Below, in pieces: positions 54,758 through 62,613 of a DNA stretch of 64,000 bases (position 1 is the stretch's first letter; each line of letters begins with the position of its first letter). The stretch comes from Variovorax paradoxus (GTDB taxonomy: Bacteria > Pseudomonadota > Gammaproteobacteria > Burkholderiales > Burkholderiaceae_C). The notes beneath the pieces are model-generated. The model did no database searches, was not told the origin of the DNA, and saw nothing but the letters and a program-made list of their open reading frames with translations. The DNA is taken from assembly GCF_029919115.1 (NCBI RefSeq), contig NZ_CP123990.1:5606501-5670500 (forward strand), given 5' to 3'. The position numbers and the translations under genes were made by a program.

Positions 54758-55261
54758 TCAGGCCGGCACCAGCCGCCACCATTCGGAGCGCGGCTTTTCT
54801 CCGTTGCGCTCTTCTTCCACGATACCGACCAGGAAGCCGGCACTTCCCGCGCCTGCTCGCGAAAGCCGCAGCAGCTCCTCCGGATCGCGGCACAGTGCAA
54901 AGCGCGCGTCGCCCTGCCATTCAAGGCAACGCCCCACCTCCGCCAGCATCAGCGCGGGCTGGCTCTGCATGAAGGTGAACGGCATCAGCATGCCCGCATC
55001 GAGCTGGGCCAGCGCCGCATGCGTCGCTCCCCAGGCGCCGCGCATGCTCGACACGCGCAGCCGCGCACCGGCCGGCAAAGCCGCCTCGCCCGCCTCGTCG
55101 AGGCAGCGGCGCGCACCGTACATTGCAAGCTCGGTCCACAACCCGACGCGCCGCGGCCGGCGGCCGAGCCGGTGCGCCAGCTGGTCCCGCCAATCCGCCG
55201 GCAGCGGATCGGCGGTGAAGTGCGCGGCGACGCGCCATGCCTCCGCGGGATGGGCGCTCAT
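54758..55261 (-). CDS. Ketosynthase-like chain-length-factor-type protein
   Basis: A 167-residue protein similar to the beta-ketoacyl-synthase N-terminal-like family (PF13723-type) found in aryl polyene and dialkylresorcinol clusters. LRVSSMRGAWGATHAALAQLDAGMLMPFTFMQSQPALMLAEVGRCL is the recognisable part. There is no catalytic Cys, so it is probably a partner of the upstream ketosynthase, setting chain length or holding the dimer (inference). Its ATG overlaps that gene's stop (ATGA). It is the last gene of the cluster. Confidence 0.7.
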   Translation of the reverse strand: MSAHPAEAWRVAAHFTADPLPADWRDQLAHRLGRRPRRVGLWTELAMYGARRCLDEAGEAALPAGARLRVSSMRGAWGATHAALAQLDAGMLMPFTFMQSQPALMLAEVGRCLEWQGDARFALCRDPEELLRLSRAGAGSAGFLVGIVEEERNGEKPRSEWWRLVPA

Positions 55262-56334
55262 GCCGTGCAATCCTGCAGCACCAGCGACGCATGCCCGCCG
55301 CCGAATCCCACCACGTTGAGCAGCATGTTGCGCAGCCTGGGCGGCGCTTGTGTGCTCAATGCGATGCCGAGCTCATCGTCGACGGCATAGCCGACGGCAG
55401 GCCAGGCGCCGGCTTCGATGCAGCCAACCAGCAAGGCGAGCTCGGCCGCGCCCGAGGCGCCCAGCGTGTGCCCGATCAGCGACTTGAGCGACACCAGCGG
55501 CGGCAGCGCGTCGAAGACCTGCTTCAGTGCCCCGGCCTCGATCGCATCGTTGACCGGGCTCCCCGCGGCCTGCACCTTGATCAGGTCGATGTCCTGCGCG
55601 CCAAGGCCGCTCTGGGCCAATGCTTCGTGGCACATCGCAACTACCGCGCTGGCCTCGGTGCCCGAAGGATTGCGCCCATCGACCACATTGGAACCACCAG
55701 CGATCCGCCAGCGCCCAGCACGCGCGCTGAGGCGCAATGCGGCCACTGCCTCACCGAGCACCAGCCCGTTGCGCCCGGCACCGAAGGGCTGCGCCCTAGC
55801 GGGTGAGAGCAGTTGCATCGCGCCGAAGCCAGCCACGGTGAAGCGGTTGCCGAGTTCGGCGCCGATCACCAGCACCTCATCGGCCTCTCCGCTTCGAATC
55901 AGGTCGCAGCCTGCGAACACGGCATTGAGCGCCGAGGTGCAGGCCGTCGAAATGGTGAACACCGGCCCCTGCCAGTCGAGTGCGCCGGCCACGAGCCCGG
56001 CAAAGTCCTGGAGATCGCCGCCCAGGCGCAGGTCTTGCACCTCTTCTTCCATGTAGCCGATGTCCAGCGACGACGATGCAACGAAGAGCGGGCACGCGGG
56101 CCCCGCTCCTTCGCCAGCCTGTGTGGCCACGCTGCGCACGGTGCGCTGCAGCCGTTCTATCCAGCTGCCCCGCTGCGGCGGCAGCGTGTAGACGGGCCAT
56201 TGCACGCTTTCAGAGACGGCCACGCTTGTGGGCTGCACACCGCCGCGCGCAACTGCGGCCACGGAGGACGAGAGATCGCTGCCGAGCGCGCAGGCCAGGC
56301 CCGTGCCGGCGAGATACACGCTCTCGGCGGTCAT
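55258..56334 (-). CDS. Beta-ketoacyl-ACP synthase-like protein, KAS I/II type with altered active site
   Basis: A 358-residue thiolase-fold protein, shorter than the 400-plus residues of FabF. The nucleophile Cys132 (STACTSA) and second His289 (KSLIGHTLGASGA, with Lys284) are present. The first catalytic His, usually in an AHGT motif, is replaced: residues 254-260 read VQAAGSP, with Ala257 at the His position. Loss of this His in other ketosynthases impairs decarboxylative condensation and can leave acyl transfer or decarboxylation only. It lies between the ACP and the chain-length-factor-like gene. Confidence 0.82.
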   Translation of the reverse strand: MTAESVYLAGTGLACALGSDLSSSVAAVARGGVQPTSVAVSESVQWPVYTLPPQRGSWIERLQRTVRSVATQAGEGAGPACPLFVASSSLDIGYMEEEVQDLRLGGDLQDFAGLVAGALDWQGPVFTISTACTSALNAVFAGCDLIRSGEADEVLVIGAELGNRFTVAGFGAMQLLSPARAQPFGAGRNGLVLGEAVAALRLSARAGRWRIAGGSNVVDGRNPSGTEASAVVAMCHEALAQSGLGAQDIDLIKVQAAGSPVNDAIEAGALKQVFDALPPLVSLKSLIGHTLGASGAAELALLVGCIEAGAWPAVGYAVDDELGIALSTQAPPRLRNMLLNVVGFGGGHASLVLQDCTA

Positions 56335-56395
56335 CAGACAGCCTTCGTGCTTCGCACTGCGGCGCGAGCTTGCTTGGGGCGGCCCGGCGCGGCGC

Positions 56396-56671
56396 TCATG
56401 CCTTGCCCGCTTGCGCCAGGTGATTCGCCAGGTGTGCGATGGAAGTGAGAGCGCGGCGCGTTTCCTTGCTGTCGGGCATGCGCACGCCGAAGCGCTGCTG
56501 GATCGTCATGGAAACCTGCAGCGCGTCGAGCGAGTCGAGGTCGAGCCGGGACTCGGGCCCGAACAGCGGTTCGTCATCGCCAAGGCCACCTGGAGGCGCG
56601 TCCTTTTCAACGGCCTCGAGCACCATGGCCTTCAGGCTGGCAATGAATTCGGCGGAAACGGAGTCGGTCAC
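56396..56671 (-). CDS. Acyl carrier protein
   Basis: A 91-residue ACP. The phosphopantetheine attachment Ser47 lies in LDLDSLDALQV, and the four-helix pattern fits. It shows low similarity to the housekeeping AcpP, so it is probably dedicated to this cluster. Its ATG overlaps the stop of the ABC permease gene by 4 bases (ATGA). Confidence 0.9.
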   Translation of the reverse strand: MTDSVSAEFIASLKAMVLEAVEKDAPPGGLGDDEPLFGPESRLDLDSLDALQVSMTIQQRFGVRMPDSKETRRALTSIAHLANHLAQAGKA

Positions 56672-57825
56672 GATGCGGGCCTGCGAAACAAGAAAACGGC
56701 GAGCAAGAACATGGCGGCCGCAAACAGCACGAGCCGGCCGACCTGCGGCAGGGTGTCGGCCACGCCGCCGCCGCGCAGCAGCACGGTAAGCAGAGCCTCC
56801 AACCCCCAGTTCATCGGAGAAATTTCGACCAGCCGCTGCATGAAGCCCGGCATGACGAACTTAGGCACCATGATGCCGCCGGCAGCCGCCATCAGCACGT
56901 TGACCATCGGCCCGATGGTCGTGGCCTGTGCATGGCTGCGCACGGCGCAGGCCAGCGCGAGCGACAGGCTCACCGCGGCCAGGCTCACGGCCGCGAGCGC
57001 AACCACCAGCGCGCTCCAATCGATCCCGGCGAGCGAAAGCGCATCGCCGCCGATCAAGGGCATCAGCCAGATGCCGGCAGCGAGCATCAACACGGCCTGC
57101 AGCGCGTTCACACCAAGGTAAGGCAAGGCTTTGGACATCAGCAGCATGGAGCGCGACACGCCCAGGCTGCGCAGCCGGCCCAGCGCGCCCGAGCCGCGCT
57201 CTTGAACGAAAAGGCTGGAGAGCGACGCCACCACGAAGAACATGCCGAACACCAGCCATGCGGGCACGTTCTGCTGCACCGATGTGGGCCGCGGTCCGGC
57301 GGCGGAATAGCGCTCGGCATTCACCAGCGCCTGGATCGAGGCGCCGGGCGGCGGACCGGAGGTGCCGGGCACCGCGAGTGCCAGGCGCGCCTTCAGCTCG
57401 CCGGACGCGCCGACGAGTTCGGCGCGCAAGGCATTAAACAGGTTGGCGTCGATGCCCGGCTCGGTCAGCAAACGGACGTGAGCCTTGGTCGAGAGCGCGG
57501 CCGATTCGAGCTCCGCCGAGAGGCCCGGCTCCAGCACGATGACGTACTTGAGCGCGCCACTGCGCAACCGCGCCTCCCAGTCGGCACCGAGCGCCTGAGG
57601 CGTACCGTGGCTGCGCTGCCAGATCTGCTGCAGCCACTGCGCTGGCGTTTCGGTGTCGCGCATGTCCACGGCATAACTCAGTTCGGCCAACGGTGGGCGA
57701 TAGATGTCCTTGAGCGTGAGCGACATCAGCACGATGAAGACCATCGGCATGAGGAACAGCGCCGCCAGCCCATGCATATCCCGCACGAGTGCCAGCAGTT
57801 CCTTCTTGATGAGCGCGAAGAGCAT
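56668..57825 (-). CDS. ABC-2 type transporter permease
   Basis: A 385-residue membrane protein: one N-terminal helix (LFLMPMVFIVLMSLTL near residue 30), a large extracytoplasmic loop, then about five C-terminal helices (VPAWLVFGMFFVVASLSSLFVQERGSGALGRLRSLGVSRSMLLMSKALPYLGV). This is the ABC-2 exporter layout also used for lipids and small molecules. It starts 6 bases after the ATPase stop. With the ATPase it would export or translocate the product of the cluster. Confidence 0.9.
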   Translation of the reverse strand: MLFALIKKELLALVRDMHGLAALFLMPMVFIVLMSLTLKDIYRPPLAELSYAVDMRDTETPAQWLQQIWQRSHGTPQALGADWEARLRSGALKYVIVLEPGLSAELESAALSTKAHVRLLTEPGIDANLFNALRAELVGASGELKARLALAVPGTSGPPPGASIQALVNAERYSAAGPRPTSVQQNVPAWLVFGMFFVVASLSSLFVQERGSGALGRLRSLGVSRSMLLMSKALPYLGVNALQAVLMLAAGIWLMPLIGGDALSLAGIDWSALVVALAAVSLAAVSLSLALACAVRSHAQATTIGPMVNVLMAAAGGIMVPKFVMPGFMQRLVEISPMNWGLEALLTVLLRGGGVADTLPQVGRLVLFAAAMFLLAVFLFRRPAS

Positions 57826-57831
57826 GTGTGT

Positions 57832-58740
57832 TCAGTCGCGCAGGGAGCGGTGGGTGAGCGCCATGAAGAGCTGCTCCAGGTCGTGGCGGCCGAATTCCGC
57901 GTGGCGCACCTCGATGCCTTCGGCTTCCAGCGCCGCGAGCACAGGGCCGGGACCGGTTCCTTCGTGCAGGTGCACGCGCCAATGCACGCCCCCAAGCTCC
58001 ACCGTTCCAAAGCGCGAGAGCATGGCCTCGTCGAGCCCGTCGGCCGCGAGCGTCAGAAGCATTGCGCTCTTCGACAACAACTCTTCAAGCGAGCCTTCAC
58101 GCAGCACTCGGCCATGGTCAAGAATGGCAACCCGGTCGGCGATGGCCTCGATCTCTTCCATGTAGTGCGAGGCATAGATCACTGCGGCGCCCTGCTGCGC
58201 CAGGCTCTTGATGGCATCGAGAATGAAGGCGCGCGATTGCGGATCGACGCCCACGGTGGGCTCGTCGAACAGCATCAACTCAGGCTCCGGCAACAGCGCA
58301 ATCGCAAGGTTCAATCGGCGTTTCAGGCCACCCGAGAGCCGCTCGGCCCGCACACCCGCGAACTGCTCAAGCTGCGAAAAGCGCGTGCAGGCTTCGATGC
58401 GCGTCTTCTTGCGCTCGCCAGAAAGTCCACCTGCCGCGGCAAAGCATGCGAGGTTCTCGGCCACGGTGAGCATGGGGTAGAAGGCCTGGTCCTGCGGGGC
58501 GACGGCGATGCGGGTTGGCGTCTTTGCCCTGACCTGTTGAAGCGGCTGGCCGTCGATGTGGATTTCGCCCGACTGCACTGCCAGCGCACCCGACAAGTGC
58601 GAGATCAACGTGGTCTTGCCTGCGCCGTTGGGGCCGAGCAAGCCCATCACCGAACCCCTGGGAACCGCGAGCGAGACTTCGGCCAACGCGGATGCGTCTG
58701 CATGCGGGTAGCGGTAGCTGAGGTTCTTCAGTTCGAGCAT
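57832..58740 (-). CDS. ABC transporter ATP-binding protein (ABC-2 exporter)
   Basis: A 302-residue ATPase: Walker A GLLGPNGAGKTTLI near residue 35, signature LSGGLKRRLNLAIALLPEPELMLFDEPTVGVDPQSR near 135, then a C-terminal 90-residue tail. The linked permease is directly downstream. The cluster's gene order and the tail are as in drug/lipid exporters of this class. Confidence 0.93.
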   Translation of the reverse strand: MLELKNLSYRYPHADASALAEVSLAVPRGSVMGLLGPNGAGKTTLISHLSGALAVQSGEIHIDGQPLQQVRAKTPTRIAVAPQDQAFYPMLTVAENLACFAAAGGLSGERKKTRIEACTRFSQLEQFAGVRAERLSGGLKRRLNLAIALLPEPELMLFDEPTVGVDPQSRAFILDAIKSLAQQGAAVIYASHYMEEIEAIADRVAILDHGRVLREGSLEELLSKSAMLLTLAADGLDEAMLSRFGTVELGGVHWRVHLHEGTGPGPVLAALEAEGIEVRHAEFGRHDLEQLFMALTHRSLRD

Positions 58741-59034
58741 GTGGTTGTTGCTCGTTGGGGGCGCTGTTGTTTGGGGCGCTGCTGTTCCACGGCTTGTGCA
58801 AAGGCCACCGGGTACTCCCCTCCGCGAATGTCCCCCGGGCTTCGCCCTCCTCCTTTATTTCGATCAACCAGTGCTCTGTGCAACGCACCCGCTGGCGGGG
58901 TGCCTTGCGCAGCGAAATAAAGGAGGAGGCCGCAGGCCGGGACATTCGCGGAGAAAGGTACCCCGTCGGCGGGGGCGCGCCCCGAACGCCCCAGATGAAA
59001 CTCATCACGGCAATCAGAAAGCCAATGCGTCATC
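58741..59034. repeat. Large imperfect palindrome (intergenic repeat element)
   Basis: The 294-base gap between the BtrH-like gene and the ABC ATPase gene is almost wholly a long inverted repeat. The outer arms 58820-58862 and 58913-58953 match closely (CTCCGCGAATGTCCC / GGGACATTCGCGGAG and CTCCTCCTTTATTTCG / CGAAATAAAGGAGGAG). The pairing extends outwards to about 58803 and 58972. An inner pair at 58876-58891 and 58896-58912 closes the loop. No gene is supported here. It resembles a miniature or REP-like mobile repeat, and inside the operon it may form a strong RNA hairpin. Confidence 0.75.
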
Positions 59035-60015
59035 TCAAGCAACAACAGCCTTCAGGTCGCGAAAGAAGGTCTCCTCCTGCTGCGCCTGCTCCCGCAGCTT
59101 GCCGGCCAGCGCGGCAGGATCGACCGGCTCGCGCCCCTTCACCATGCGCGCCGCCTTGAGTGCGAAAGCGCGCCAGCCGTCGCCGATGGCGATGAGCCGT
59201 TCGGACATCTGTTGCAGTTGCGGCTTGTCGAGCAGTACCGCGGCCTCTTGCAGAAAGCCGGCGTAGATAAAGCGGAAGCCTGCCCCACCGGTGCCGATCT
59301 CTTCCTGCATGCGCACCACGTGGCCGATGAAGTCGACGCTGCGCGGATCGGCCGGCGAAAGCTTCTGCATGCGGTTGGCCAGCGTGCGCATGCCGCGCAC
59401 GCCGACGATGGGAATGGGGGCGAGCATGTTGCGCACGGTCTTGCGGATGGCCTTTGTGACCGAGGCTGCATCGACAGTCTTGCGCTCGATGGCTTGCGGG
59501 TAGTACATGAGGCCCTTGGGCGCGAGCACACCCTTGGCGAAGCGAGCCCGTGAGAGGTCTGCACTGGCGCAGCGCACCGGCTCTTCGAACACCGGGTCGC
59601 TGATCAGGTAGTCGTCGCCGTCTTTCCCGTACACCAGCAGGTTGTGCGCGTTGAAGTGAAAGCGCATGTTGGGCGGAAAGTACGGCAGCCAATAGACCGA
59701 GGTCTGCAAGCCCACGAGCTGCCCGTCGGCCAGGAGTGCGTCCAGGCGCTGTGCGCCGGCTTCCGGGCTGCGAAAGGTCTCGAAGCGGAATCGTGCGGCC
59801 ATCGGTGCCAGCAGGCCCTTGATGATGGCCTTGGGCGGCATGCGGTACGAGATGAGCGGCAAGCCCGACAGCTTGATGAACGGCAGGTAGGCGAACGACA
59901 GGGCCGACGAAAGGCCGAGGGCCATGCTTTCGGTCATCGGCACGCCGTGGTGGCGCATCAGGTTCGAGATGACGCCGCTTTCGCAGTGTGCCGCTTGTTG
60001 GTGTTCGAATTTCAC
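59035..60015 (-). CDS. BtrH-like (butirosin biosynthesis H) N-terminal domain protein
   Basis: A 326-residue protein. FEHQQAAHCESGVISNLMRHHG at the start (Cys11), HFNAHNLLVYGKDGDDYLISDPVFEEPVRC near residue 140 (His, Asp) and a long helical C-terminal half fit the BtrH family, papain-like acyl transferases that move acyl groups from ACP to an acceptor. The start is GTG at 60015, overlapping the previous stop (GTGA). Members occur in flexirubin and dialkylresorcinol clusters, suggesting acylation of the aromatic product (inference). Confidence 0.8.
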   Translation of the reverse strand: MKFEHQQAAHCESGVISNLMRHHGVPMTESMALGLSSALSFAYLPFIKLSGLPLISYRMPPKAIIKGLLAPMAARFRFETFRSPEAGAQRLDALLADGQLVGLQTSVYWLPYFPPNMRFHFNAHNLLVYGKDGDDYLISDPVFEEPVRCASADLSRARFAKGVLAPKGLMYYPQAIERKTVDAASVTKAIRKTVRNMLAPIPIVGVRGMRTLANRMQKLSPADPRSVDFIGHVVRMQEEIGTGGAGFRFIYAGFLQEAAVLLDKPQLQQMSERLIAIGDGWRAFALKAARMVKGREPVDPAALAGKLREQAQQEETFFRDLKAVVA

Positions 60016-60407
60016 GGCAGGCCTTGCAAGGTGGAAACGGGCAGGCCCAGCGCCTCGGAGTAGCGCGCCAGGTGCTTCGCGGGCAGCGCCGCGAAATGCT
60101 TGGGCTTCAGGTGACGCCGCACGCGCCATTGCCAGAAGCCGCTGGTCTGCGAGAGCAGTGCCACGTCCATGCGGCGCTCGTACATCCAGTATTCGAGCGG
60201 CGACGCGAGCCCTTGGGCCACGCGCTCCTTTGCGGCCTGCGCCTGCTCGACGAGCACGTCGACCGCGTGGCTGGTGACGATTTCTTCCGCCTCCCAGCCG
60301 CGCGAGCGCGTGGTGACGACGCGGCCCTGCGCATCGCGCGCGTACATGAGCTTGGCGTGGCCGTCGAGGGTGGCATTGCCTTCTTGCGGAACGGCGTCGA
60401 GGTCCAT
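60012..60407 (-). CDS. Hypothetical protein in resorcinol-type cluster
   Basis: A 131-residue protein of unknown family. It is largely helical and basic in the second half (GFWQWRVRRHLKPKHFAALPAKHLARYSEALGLP) and has a Trp-Glu-rich centre (SRGWEAEEIVTSHAVDVLVEQ). It has no signal peptide. It is placed between darB (2 bases away) and the BtrH-like gene (4-base overlap), so it is translationally tied to the cluster. It could be an ACP- or enzyme-binding helper; nothing more can be said. Confidence 0.6.
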   Translation of the reverse strand: MDLDAVPQEGNATLDGHAKLMYARDAQGRVVTTRSRGWEAEEIVTSHAVDVLVEQAQAAKERVAQGLASPLEYWMYERRMDVALLSQTSGFWQWRVRRHLKPKHFAALPAKHLARYSEALGLPVSTLQGLP

Positions 60408-60409
60408 GG

Positions 60410-61546
60410 CTAGATGGCTTCCAGGTAGATGAAACCGCTGGAGAAGCGGCCGCTTTCGGGCACGAACATCAGCAGCTTGTGGCCGGGCTTGATGCGGCCC
60501 GAACGGAACAGCTCGTCGAGCATGATGTAGGGCGATGCCGAGCCGGTGTTGCCCTTGGTCGCGAGATTGCTGAACCAGCGCTCGCGCGGAATGGCAAAAC
60601 CCATGGCCTCCAGGCACTGGCTCACAGGCTCGATGAAGTAGCCGGACGAGAGATGCGGCAGGAACCAGTCGACATCTGAAGCCTTCAGGCCGCGCTTCTC
60701 GATGATGGCCGCCAGCGGCTCGCCCAGCGTGGCACGAACGATGTTCTCGTTGAGCAGGCGCACGTCCTGCTTCACGGCAAAGGTCGACTCGCGCTGCCAG
60801 TCTTCGGGCGCGGTGCGCGCCCATCCCTCCAGGCCGCCTTCGTTGTTCTTGTCGGCGCCTGCATACATGCACACCGGCAGTTCGTGGGCGGCGGAAGACA
60901 GGTCGATCCACTCCACGCGCAGCGACAGCGGGCCGCGCGGCTCTCGCTCGAGCAGCACGGCGCCTGCACCGTCGGAGAGCATCCAGCGCAGAAAGTCTTT
61001 TTCGAATGCGATTTCGGGCCGCTCCTCGAGCGCCTGCAGCTTGTGCTCCAGCTCAGCTTCGAAGCGGGAGCCGCGCATCACGGCCGAGGCGAGTTCGGAC
61101 CCCGTGGCCACCGCACGCCGCGCATCGCCTGAGCGCACAGAGAGCCATGCGTGCTTGAGCGCCGTGGTGCCCGCCAGGCAGATGCCCGCGCAGGCCACCA
61201 CTTCGAGCCGTGGCCAGCCAAGCTCGCCGTGCACCATCACCGCATGGTTGGGCATCAGCTGGTCGGGAAGCGACGTGCCGGTAACCAGGCAATCGACCGG
61301 ACCGATGTCATCGCCCAGCGCCCGGATGGCCGAGGCCGTGAGCTGCGCGTTGCTCATGGCGAGTTGGCCGGTGGCCCGGTCGATGGCGTAGTGGCGCGAC
61401 TGGATGCCGTTGCTGCGAAGAATCAGCCGCCGCGCGCGCGAAGCCTTGCCGCCGACGCGACCGAGAACGTCTTCGATGTCTTCATTGCTGACCGGGGAAA
61501 AGGGCAGAAAGGCGGCGGTGCGGGTCAGGAAGACATCAGTCGTCAT
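60410..61546 (-). CDS. darB: 3-oxoacyl-ACP synthase III, DarB-like
   Basis: A 378-residue KAS III-type enzyme. The nucleophile is Cys119 or Cys123 in VVACAGICLAGTTALKHAWLSVRSGDARRAVATGSELAS; LPHLSSGY carries the catalytic His and KGNTGSAS the Asn. In DAR biosynthesis, DarB joins two beta-ketoacyl chains before DarA closes the ring (family knowledge). Its start overlaps the darA stop by 11 bases, so the two are coupled. Confidence 0.88.
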   Translation of the reverse strand: MTTDVFLTRTAAFLPFSPVSNEDIEDVLGRVGGKASRARRLILRSNGIQSRHYAIDRATGQLAMSNAQLTASAIRALGDDIGPVDCLVTGTSLPDQLMPNHAVMVHGELGWPRLEVVACAGICLAGTTALKHAWLSVRSGDARRAVATGSELASAVMRGSRFEAELEHKLQALEERPEIAFEKDFLRWMLSDGAGAVLLEREPRGPLSLRVEWIDLSSAAHELPVCMYAGADKNNEGGLEGWARTAPEDWQRESTFAVKQDVRLLNENIVRATLGEPLAAIIEKRGLKASDVDWFLPHLSSGYFIEPVSQCLEAMGFAIPRERWFSNLATKGNTGSASPYIMLDELFRSGRIKPGHKLLMFVPESGRFSSGFIYLEAI

Positions 61547-62516
61547 AGCGGGGAAAACGGTCCGTGGCCGAGCCCGACGGGCGCTCGAAAAGAGCCGTCA
61601 TTTTAGTCAGCCACCCCTTGAACAGCGGCCGCAGCAGCGCCTGGAGCGTCAAGCTCACAGGCACGACCGTGACAATGAGCACGAGGAGGAAGGCCACGTA
61701 CAGCAGCAGCAAGGGCTTGCGCTGCCACGCGCCCGGCCGCCCCGCGGCCATGATCAGCTTGCCCCAGAGAAAAAAGCTGCGGGTGCCGGCCTTTTCGCTG
61801 ATCAGGAGCTTTGCATTGGCCTGAACGGCCCCCATGCCGGAGAGCAGCGGCTGTGTTCCGCGTTCGAGATCGCTGTGCAGCGCCTCGCGCAGCGCACGGC
61901 CAAAACGGCCGGTACCTCGGATCTGCCCTTCGCTGAGGCCGGCGTCGGGCATGCCCCAGAAGCCGCGTTTGCGGCCCCAGATCAGCCAGGCCGGCGTGGT
62001 GAAGAAGGTGGCCAGCGTCGGCCCGGGATCGGTCAGCACCACGTTGTCGATCAGGCGGGCGCCCACGGCGTCGAGCAGGCCCTTGAGCTTTTCGTGCGCC
62101 AGCAGCCACATGTTGCGGCAGGCGATCACTGTGACGACGGGCTTGCCCTGCAGCAGTTGCGCTGCCAGCGGGTGCTTCAGGAAGGCGACGATCGGCTGCG
62201 ACGGCGCCAGGAACCACACCTGGTACGGCAGGATGACCAAGTCGAACTGCTCGTCCCCAGTGAGCGAAAGCGGCGCCAGCGGCGGCGGCTTCAGGTGCGC
62301 CGATTCGGGAAAGGCGTCGAAGAAGGTCAGGAACGGCCAGGGAAACGGAAAGTCCGCCAGCGGGCGCAGCGTTTCGACATGCACGGAGATTGCCGGATCG
62401 GCCTTGAGCGGCGCGACGATCTGCTCGGCGACGCTGCCGAGCTGGCCGGTCTGCGAATAGTGAATCACCAGGACACGTTTGGGGCGCGCGGCGGGGCTGG
62501 AAATGCTTGAAGTCAC
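61536..62516 (-). CDS. darA: Dialkylresorcinol condensing enzyme-like protein (DarA)
   Basis: A 326-residue protein from GTG 62516; an ATG at 62585 would add 23 residues but starts only 29 bases past the terminator arm at 62614. It begins with a flavodoxin-like segment (KRVLVIHYSQTGQLGSVAEQIV), then FDLVILPYQVWFLAPSQPIVAFLKHPLAAQLLQGKPVVTVIACRNMWLLA, and ends with a membrane helix (LLLLYVAFLLVLIVTVVPVSLTL). This is the DarA layout, which with DarB makes dialkylresorcinol cores. It is the first gene of the cluster. Confidence 0.82.
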   Translation of the reverse strand: MTSSISSPAARPKRVLVIHYSQTGQLGSVAEQIVAPLKADPAISVHVETLRPLADFPFPWPFLTFFDAFPESAHLKPPPLAPLSLTGDEQFDLVILPYQVWFLAPSQPIVAFLKHPLAAQLLQGKPVVTVIACRNMWLLAHEKLKGLLDAVGARLIDNVVLTDPGPTLATFFTTPAWLIWGRKRGFWGMPDAGLSEGQIRGTGRFGRALREALHSDLERGTQPLLSGMGAVQANAKLLISEKAGTRSFFLWGKLIMAAGRPGAWQRKPLLLLYVAFLLVLIVTVVPVSLTLQALLRPLFKGWLTKMTALFERPSGSATDRFPRYDD

Positions 62517-62613
62517 TTGCTGGGGCGGAACGAGGGCCGTCGAATGTAAGCCAACCGTACGCCTGGCGCATCTGCCATTGGTCATGCCGTCGCGCCGGCC
62601 CCACGAATGGACG

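Follow-up and report, generated by a model that had tools for sequence, protein, structure and literature searches.

The window analysed here is a stretch of 64,000 nucleotides (positions 5606501-5670500) of a 5.81-Mb single-contig Variovorax genome, whose best protein and contig matches bear Variovorax names. It holds nine open reading frames (ORFs), all on the minus strand and running from position 62516 down to 54758 in the order darA, darB, darD, darE, darF, darI, darC, darJ and darK, which very probably constitute the dialkylresorcinol (DAR) module of a pathway to a yellow pigment of the arcuflavin/flexirubin type, in which an aryl polyene is bound to a DAR, with the polyene acid made elsewhere and DarE joining the two halves. 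This type of cluster is real, conserved and already described: a sequence-only reading of the window had correctly listed these genes in one orientation and presented them as a compact cluster apart from polyene pathways, but this set had already been described in 2014 within an arcuflavin-type pathway (PMC3949708). The one feature of the cluster that is without earlier description in the literature covered is the change from His to Gln in the ketosynthase (KS) DarJ. In that literature on dar genes and pigments (titles and abstracts, few subscription journals), nothing was found on the roles of DarJ, DarK or DarE; the papers cited by PMC number are represented here by parts of their text. The gene letters are those of the 2014 Azoarcus paper (PMC3949708), not those of NCBIfam, whose DarG and DarH correspond, by position and annotation, to Azoarcus darD and darE; in Azoarcus itself, the letters darG and darH denote a Prevent-host-death/PilT pair (PMC3949708).

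The family assignments support a role of the nine genes in DAR biosynthesis, as the sequence-only reading had proposed, with scores over curated cut-offs for DarB, DarD and DarE. DarB (60410..61546, 378 aa) is a ketosynthase of the StlD/DarB type that scores 591.7 bits with the StlD/DarB model NF005293 (cut-off 450) and 466 bits, below the cut-off of 550, with the narrower 'exception' model NF053539 (resorcinol_DarB); its best solved relative is StlD (PDB 5gk0, E=7.6e-124), and the residues C119, H298 and N333 were read off the sequence, without alignment to StlD. DarE (59035..60015, 326 aa) is a BtrH-like protein, equivalent to Azoarcus DarE by position and annotation and assigned to the 'DarH acyltransferase' family of NCBIfam (NF053550 DarH_acyl, 488.6 bits, cut-off 300). 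It matches PF14399 (E=4e-48) and PF16169 (E=1.2e-51), contains His10-Cys11 at the start of the BtrH_N domain, and found no solved relative in the PDB.

Next to darB, darA (61536..62516, 326 aa from a GTG start, or 349 aa from an alternative ATG at 62585) corresponds to the gene for the DAR aromatase/condensing protein in the published cluster, an assignment made by position and conservation: no Pfam or NCBIfam model matches it, the PDB search gave nothing significant (best E=0.4), and a distant orthologue (locus L051) has weak matches to flavodoxin models (best E=1.1e-4). DarD (60012..60407, 131 aa), previously taken for an unknown gene product, is Azoarcus DarD by position and a member of the NCBIfam 'DarG family' (NF053536 DarG_fam, 166.8 bits, cut-off 70), with 122.8 bits, below the cut-off of 170, against flexirubin_DarG (NF053545). 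DarC (56396..56671, 91 aa) is an acyl carrier protein (ACP; PF00550, E=9.2e-6) with a DSL motif at 46-48 that includes Ser47. DarF (57832..58740, 302 aa) is the ATPase of an ABC transporter (PF00005, E=2.4e-31) and DarI (56668..57825, 385 aa) an ABC-2 permease (PF12698, E=3.8e-24).

None of the nine proteins matches a ketoreductase, dehydratase or thioesterase family in Pfam or NCBIfam, in agreement with the earlier reading, and the nine genes do not make up an aryl polyene cluster, which would have all three enzymes of its own. Aryl polyene genes are nevertheless encoded in the same genome, at two other loci. The first, at about 0.45 Mb, includes a polyene KS (454742-455920) that scores 507.7 bits with the APE-type KS model NF006618 (PRK09185; cut-off 407) and is the only protein of the genome over that cut-off, together with a PF13723 partner and a halogenase-like gene (PF04820). 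The second is matched by genes of a relative (L053) in which polyene and DAR genes form one block: a 774-aa protein that we read as the exporter of this block has a counterpart at 2422931-2425252, with 41% identity. The 2.42-Mb locus also encodes a ketoreductase-type short-chain dehydrogenase/reductase, a methyltransferase, a polysaccharide deacetylase, a LolA-like protein, an AMP-ligase with a FabA-like domain and an ACP over the PRK09184 cut-off. Three proteins of this locus resemble L053 genes and have no Pfam match at 1e-5, namely, the exporter-like protein, a 157-aa protein, which we read as a hot-dog dehydratase, and a 333-aa protein. The earlier suggestion that acyl chains come from primary metabolism or a second locus thus stands insofar as polyene genes reside elsewhere; these would supply the acid that is esterified, and for the resorcinol, fatty-acid metabolism probably remains the source. 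A further KS gene, followed in a row by genes for a putative ACP and a putative alpha/beta hydrolase, is located at about 0.21 Mb of the same genome (L019:7005-9427).

The BtrH-like gene and the polyene KS occur together well beyond this genome. Among 399 Burkholderiales genomes, 12 carry a DarE-type gene that exceeds the cut-off, a number that rises to 15 at E<=0.001; the polyene KS was found in 120 with a limit of E<=1e-95, and in 116 it exceeds its cut-off. All 12 DarE-positive genomes have the polyene KS (Fisher's exact p=3.7e-7, without kinship correction), but these 12 belong to five families and are not independent. Among 369 genomes of the class, DarE is over the cut-off in 18, including the window's own (21 at E<=0.001), and the other 17 all have a polyene KS over the cut-off. 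In 7 of these 17 genomes and in one genome of the Burkholderiales survey (G024), the two genes share a contig and are at most about 30 kb apart. This association with polyene genes suggests that DarE is the ester-forming enzyme.

On these grounds, the pathway can be envisaged as follows. DarB would condense two fatty-acid-derived acyl thioesters and DarA would finish the resorcinol ring, reactions that are known for the two families. A xanthomonadin-like aryl polyene acid would be built by the enzymes of the two other chromosomal loci, the BtrH-like DarE would most likely esterify this acid with the resorcinol, and DarF-DarI would carry the product across the membrane; like the sequence-only reading, we infer both the export and the acyl transfer. 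DarC, DarJ and DarK would form a small unit of KS, chain-length factor (CLF) and ACP. A class of ketosynthases makes cyclohexanediones by combining a beta-ketoacyl thioester with an unsaturated acyl thioester (PMC4578411); we take DarB to belong to this class. Heterologous expression of darA and darB from Chitinophaga yielded a DAR (PMC3992019); DarJ and DarK thus do not seem to be needed for resorcinol formation, which is consistent with the proposed scheme.

The cluster is compact and, in the genus Variovorax, ordinary. The junction of darA and darB is an 11-base overlap; 4-base overlaps, which the sequence-only reading had attributed to most junctions, are present at 3 of 8 (darD/darE, darI/darC and darJ/darK), and the remaining genes are separated by 2 (darB/darD), 294 (darE/darF), 6 (darF/darI) and 61 (darC/darJ) bases. 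A KS-based search yielded 21 loci, 18 of which have all nine genes in identical order. One locus (L040) is spurious, with a 34-residue match and without any other cluster gene, and two (L021 and L036) begin inside the cluster, where the contig ends; in L027, the best darB match spans 199 residues only, and in L032, darK is cut by the end of the locus. In all complete loci and in those loci of the wider survey that have darB, darA adjoins darB, with two small ORFs between them in L051.

Some loci of the wider survey have a different gene content. The class-level loci L091, L095 and L096 possess darA, darB, darD and darE, with the ABC transporter, ACP, DarJ and DarK unmatched in 20 kb, so that the DAR module evidently can be split. 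L049 and L050 (genomes G232 and G375) contain DarE, DarF, DarI, DarC, DarJ and DarK, and darA and darB were not found within 20 kb. By genus code, G232 and G375 belong with G262, a genome whose DarK has relatives named Neisseria; the polyene KS matches of G232 and G375 contain one internal TAA.

DarJ (55258..56334, 358 aa; PF00109 and PF02801) is a KAS I/II-type ketosynthase in which the Cys and the second His of the elongating enzymes are present and the first His is absent. The alignment used comprised DarJ, 120 listed homologues of 58-91% identity (the best of 1113) and two further KS from this genome. Its catalytic positions are Cys132, Gln255 in the column of the first His, Lys284 and His289, the second His; among these best 120 of 1113 homologues, the first-His column holds Gln in 118 and His in 2, and Cys132, Lys284 and His289 are each retained in all 120. 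The correspondence is free of gaps, with DarJ 'KVQAAGSPVND' opposite 'NAHGTSTQIGD' and 'NMHGTASQKND'. Further alignments combined 12 DarJ with three other KS, and DarJ with four KS of the same genome; both give the same placement, at residue 255. The sequence-only reading was thus right that the first His is lost and wrong about the residue that took its place: it named Ala257, which aligns with the Thr of HGT. The first His is described as required for decarboxylative condensation (PMC4661987). A literature search on H298Q mutants of FabB did not return this term among the matches listed.

A broader set comprises 43 DarJ proteins, defined as ORFs that score higher with the DarJ profile than with the polyene-KS profile and drawn from 20 of 20 genome-contig loci, 11 of 11 Burkholderiales stretches, 11 of 17 class-level stretches and the window. 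All 43 keep Cys132, Lys284 and His289, and the first position is occupied by Gln in 29 and by His in 14; in the same alignment, each of the 22 polyene KS has His at this position. In the Gln forms, the whole HGT motif is rewritten, to QAAGS, QSGGG or QASGS. In a tree of 35 rows, from which 18 Variovorax DarJ, 12 of the 22 polyene KS and the columns flanking the trait were omitted, the DarJ and polyene KS clades are separated with a support of 100/100, and the distribution of His and Gln implies 3 changes. The Gln branch includes Variovorax, Methylibium and L053-L058; L059 has His within the Gln group, and L083, a long branch with Gln, is of unsure placement. The base of DarJ lacks resolution in this tree, for which the tool warned of meeting long branches. 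The Neisseria-like L049-L051, with the same gene order, retain His. Because all polyene KS have His, this residue is probably the ancestral state of the first position in DarJ.

DarJ scores below the cut-offs of the APE-type KS model NF006618 (151.5 bits) and of the AmcF model NF058662 (106.3 bits, cut-off 325). Its best solved relatives are 6qsp_A, from the entry of the Xenorhabdus doucetiae ApeO-ApeC pair, and 7f28_B.

DarK (54758..55261, 167 aa) appears to be a distant, half-size relative of the CLF of the ApeC type, an assignment with moderate support. As a single sequence, it has no match in PDB, Pfam or NCBIfam. A profile of 10 DarK found a single match in the PDB, 7f28_A (E=2.4e-4), a 204-aa 'Ketoacyl_synth_N domain-containing protein' that is the partner chain of 7f28_B, the match of DarJ. 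The 7f28 entry presumably represents the ApeO-ApeC pair of Acinetobacter baumannii. In each of the 11 class-level loci with a DarJ, the ORF matched by a DarK profile is its immediate neighbour. When 10 of these 11 DarK, from other lineages, were compared with PF00109, three gave matches below the cut-off, with E=3.4e-4 (20.7 bits, cut-off 20.8), 0.0039 and 0.042; the polyene-CLF profile matches two class-level DarK (E=3.6e-4 and 0.008), and PF13723 is matched by no DarK submitted to Pfam. Comparison of DarK profiles with polyene CLF and KS profiles by hhalign gave no significant probability (<10%), and the scores that sometimes exceeded all 30 column shuffles are given no weight; the method is weak here because polyene CLF against polyene KS itself reached only 0.5%.

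The pairing of DarJ with DarK is suggested by the adjacency of the genes and their 4-base overlap. The sequence-only reading regarded DarK as truncated, but half size is known for this class of CLF: ApeC of A. baumannii has one thiolase domain only (PMC8358021), so that a short DarK is not odd. By the gene calls of our script, DarK is 192-244 aa long in 10 of 11 loci outside Variovorax, compared with 167 aa in the window; the Methylibium protein (L037) also has 167 aa, and those of Rhizobacter and Piscinibacter are equally short.

Several observations weigh against the proposed scheme or parts of it. For the Variovorax strain, the pigment is a prediction from the genes. Of three Burkholderiales genomes with a DarE-type gene below the cut-off, two have the polyene KS and one (G281) lacks it, and the class-wide count of 17 out of 17 stands without a background rate of the polyene KS. 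Within the genus (101 genomes), the polyene KS is present in 99 and the BtrH-like marker in 57 (p=0.19), and the two genomes that lack the polyene KS also lack a DarE-type gene; since the polyene KS is nearly universal here, the association at the genus level carries no weight. Six of the 17 class-level loci combine DarE with DarA/B, with no DarJ in the fetched stretch (three of these stretches span <=12.2 kb), so DarJ is not always needed nearby, and because 14 of the 43 DarJ keep the first His, the loss of condensation is not a trait of the family. Finally, a ligase-like protein, FlxW, has been proposed for the formation of the flexirubin ester (PMC3992019), rather than a counterpart of DarE.

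Because DAR formation seems independent of DarJ and the residue for decarboxylation is missing here, the simplest role of DarJ is transfer without extension: the chances appear about even that the KS-CLF-ACP unit, lacking the first His, passes an acyl chain to DarC instead of extending it. A more specific version, which we put forward tentatively and with somewhat less than even confidence, is that DarJ-DarK is a free-standing type II counterpart of the non-elongating KS0 domains, a pair that retained the Cys which accepts the acyl group and in which, in the Variovorax branch, Gln replaced the decarboxylation His. Such a pair would hand a finished acyl chain, either aryl polyenoyl or a DAR precursor, to DarC for use by DarE, and the orthologues with His would represent the elongating ancestors.

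It is also possible, though we consider it less likely than not, that DarJ-DarK still catalyse decarboxylative condensation, with Gln255 covering for His, and supply either the beta-ketoacyl substrate of DarB or the last extension of the polyene. The invariance of Cys, Lys and the second His in the 43 DarJ is compatible with this possibility, as are the 14 orthologues that retain the first His at the same position in the cluster and the related AmcF-AmcG pair, which truly elongates by C2 with a small partner (PMC10698177); the complete rewriting of the HGT motif in the Gln forms and the formation of DAR from darA and darB alone in a heterologous host (PMC3992019) argue against it.

An unlikely alternative concerns the product: a free dialkylresorcinol, acting as a signal or antioxidant, could be made from ordinary fatty-acid intermediates, with no connection to the polyene. 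Dialkylresorcinols are known bacterial signals (PMC4578411), and the DAR and polyene loci of this genome are far apart; the clusters, however, include the BtrH-like gene, and every genome of the two wider surveys in which this gene exceeded the cut-off (12 of 12 and, without the window's own, 17 of 17) had polyene genes as well; in Azoarcus no free DAR was detected in the work as covered, the DAR being bound to a xanthomonadin-like polyene through an ester predicted from mass spectrometry (MS; PMC3949708).

Improbable, and the least likely of these readings, is that the DarJ-DarK pair is a decaying remnant of ApeO-ApeC, as might be suspected from the shortness of DarK in Variovorax relative to most other loci compared and from the ratios of nonsynonymous to synonymous substitutions (dN/dS) against L020 (0.23 for darJ and 0.19 for darK, 0.03-0.14 for the other seven genes), given that this contrast shrinks with distance (0.38 and 0.45 against 0.22-0.34 in the comparison with L037, and smaller also with L028), the values for darJ and darK are below 1 in all four comparisons (0.16-0.45), both genes are open and in place in 20 of 20 loci (darK of L032 being cut by the locus end), the catalytic Cys is invariant, and Gln255 recurs in 118 of the best 120 homologues. 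Decay was accordingly rejected as the main explanation: darJ and darK are under purifying selection, though looser than that on their neighbours.

The reading of the nine genes as a DAR module thus provides a lead on the step that links the polyene acid to the resorcinol and on the carrier involved. Because clusters that otherwise match differ naturally in having His or Gln in DarJ, they allow a clean comparison of whether a KS-CLF pair can become a pure transferase of acyl groups between carriers.

Two intergenic stretches of the cluster have features of their own. The darE-darF gap contains an imperfect palindromic repeat of about 160 bases (58807..58966, no strand assigned; arms of 29 and 28 nt) with 164 BLAST matches in the same genome, including near-full copies of 93% and 86% identity; it looks like a dispersed non-coding element outside the pathway. 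A second repeat-like stretch in the darC-darJ gap (56325-56402) has parts that match two Variovorax plasmid records and, in our reading, holds an ORF of 21 codons, through which darC and darJ would be coupled. Plasmid origin of the cluster was considered and rejected: 72,556 plasmid records gave short matches only, in five Variovorax records.

Among known systems, the closest is the dar cluster of Azoarcus sp. BH72, whose pigment, arcuflavin, was identified by MS (Schoner et al. 2014; PMC3949708). It has the same nine genes in the same order, with the polyene genes at separate loci, an arrangement that resembles that of the window's genome, and DAR and polyene gene sets were reported for V. 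paradoxus S110 as well (PMC3949708). Unlike the cluster in the window, the Azoarcus cluster contains extra PilT and Prevent-host-death genes between darF and darI. Two genes that we read as a PIN-like/antitoxin-like pair occupy the same place in L059 (L059:8092-8741), as in Azoarcus; the DarJ of L059 retains His inside a decayed motif. In the parts of the Azoarcus paper covered, darK is labelled hypothetical and darJ merely 'ketosynthase', and the disruptions described are those of the polyene genes arcK and arcT, with dar genes not among them (PMC3949708). The flexirubin clusters of Chitinophaga and Flavobacterium likewise include darA and darB and yield an aryl polyene esterified with a DAR (PMC3992019).

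For DarJ-DarK, three systems are comparable. The ApeO-ApeC pair (6qsp) shares with it the half-size CLF, and the solved relatives of both proteins are of this kind (6qsp_A and 7f28_B for DarJ, 7f28_A for the DarK profile), but DarJ differs in the Gln at the first His and belongs to a clade separate from the polyene KS. AmcF-AmcG of cispentacin biosynthesis also combines a KS, a motif-poor partner and a dedicated ACP, but it elongates by C2 and cyclises (PMC10698177), and DarJ falls short of the AmcF cut-off; AmcG is reportedly insoluble by itself. The KS0 domains of modular polyketide synthases, like the Gln forms of DarJ, have lost the first His, that of HGTGT, and possess the transacylation Cys, which in an algal KS0 is shifted by two positions (PMC4661987); KS0, however, are built into type I synthases, whereas DarJ is a separate type II protein accompanied by a CLF-like one.

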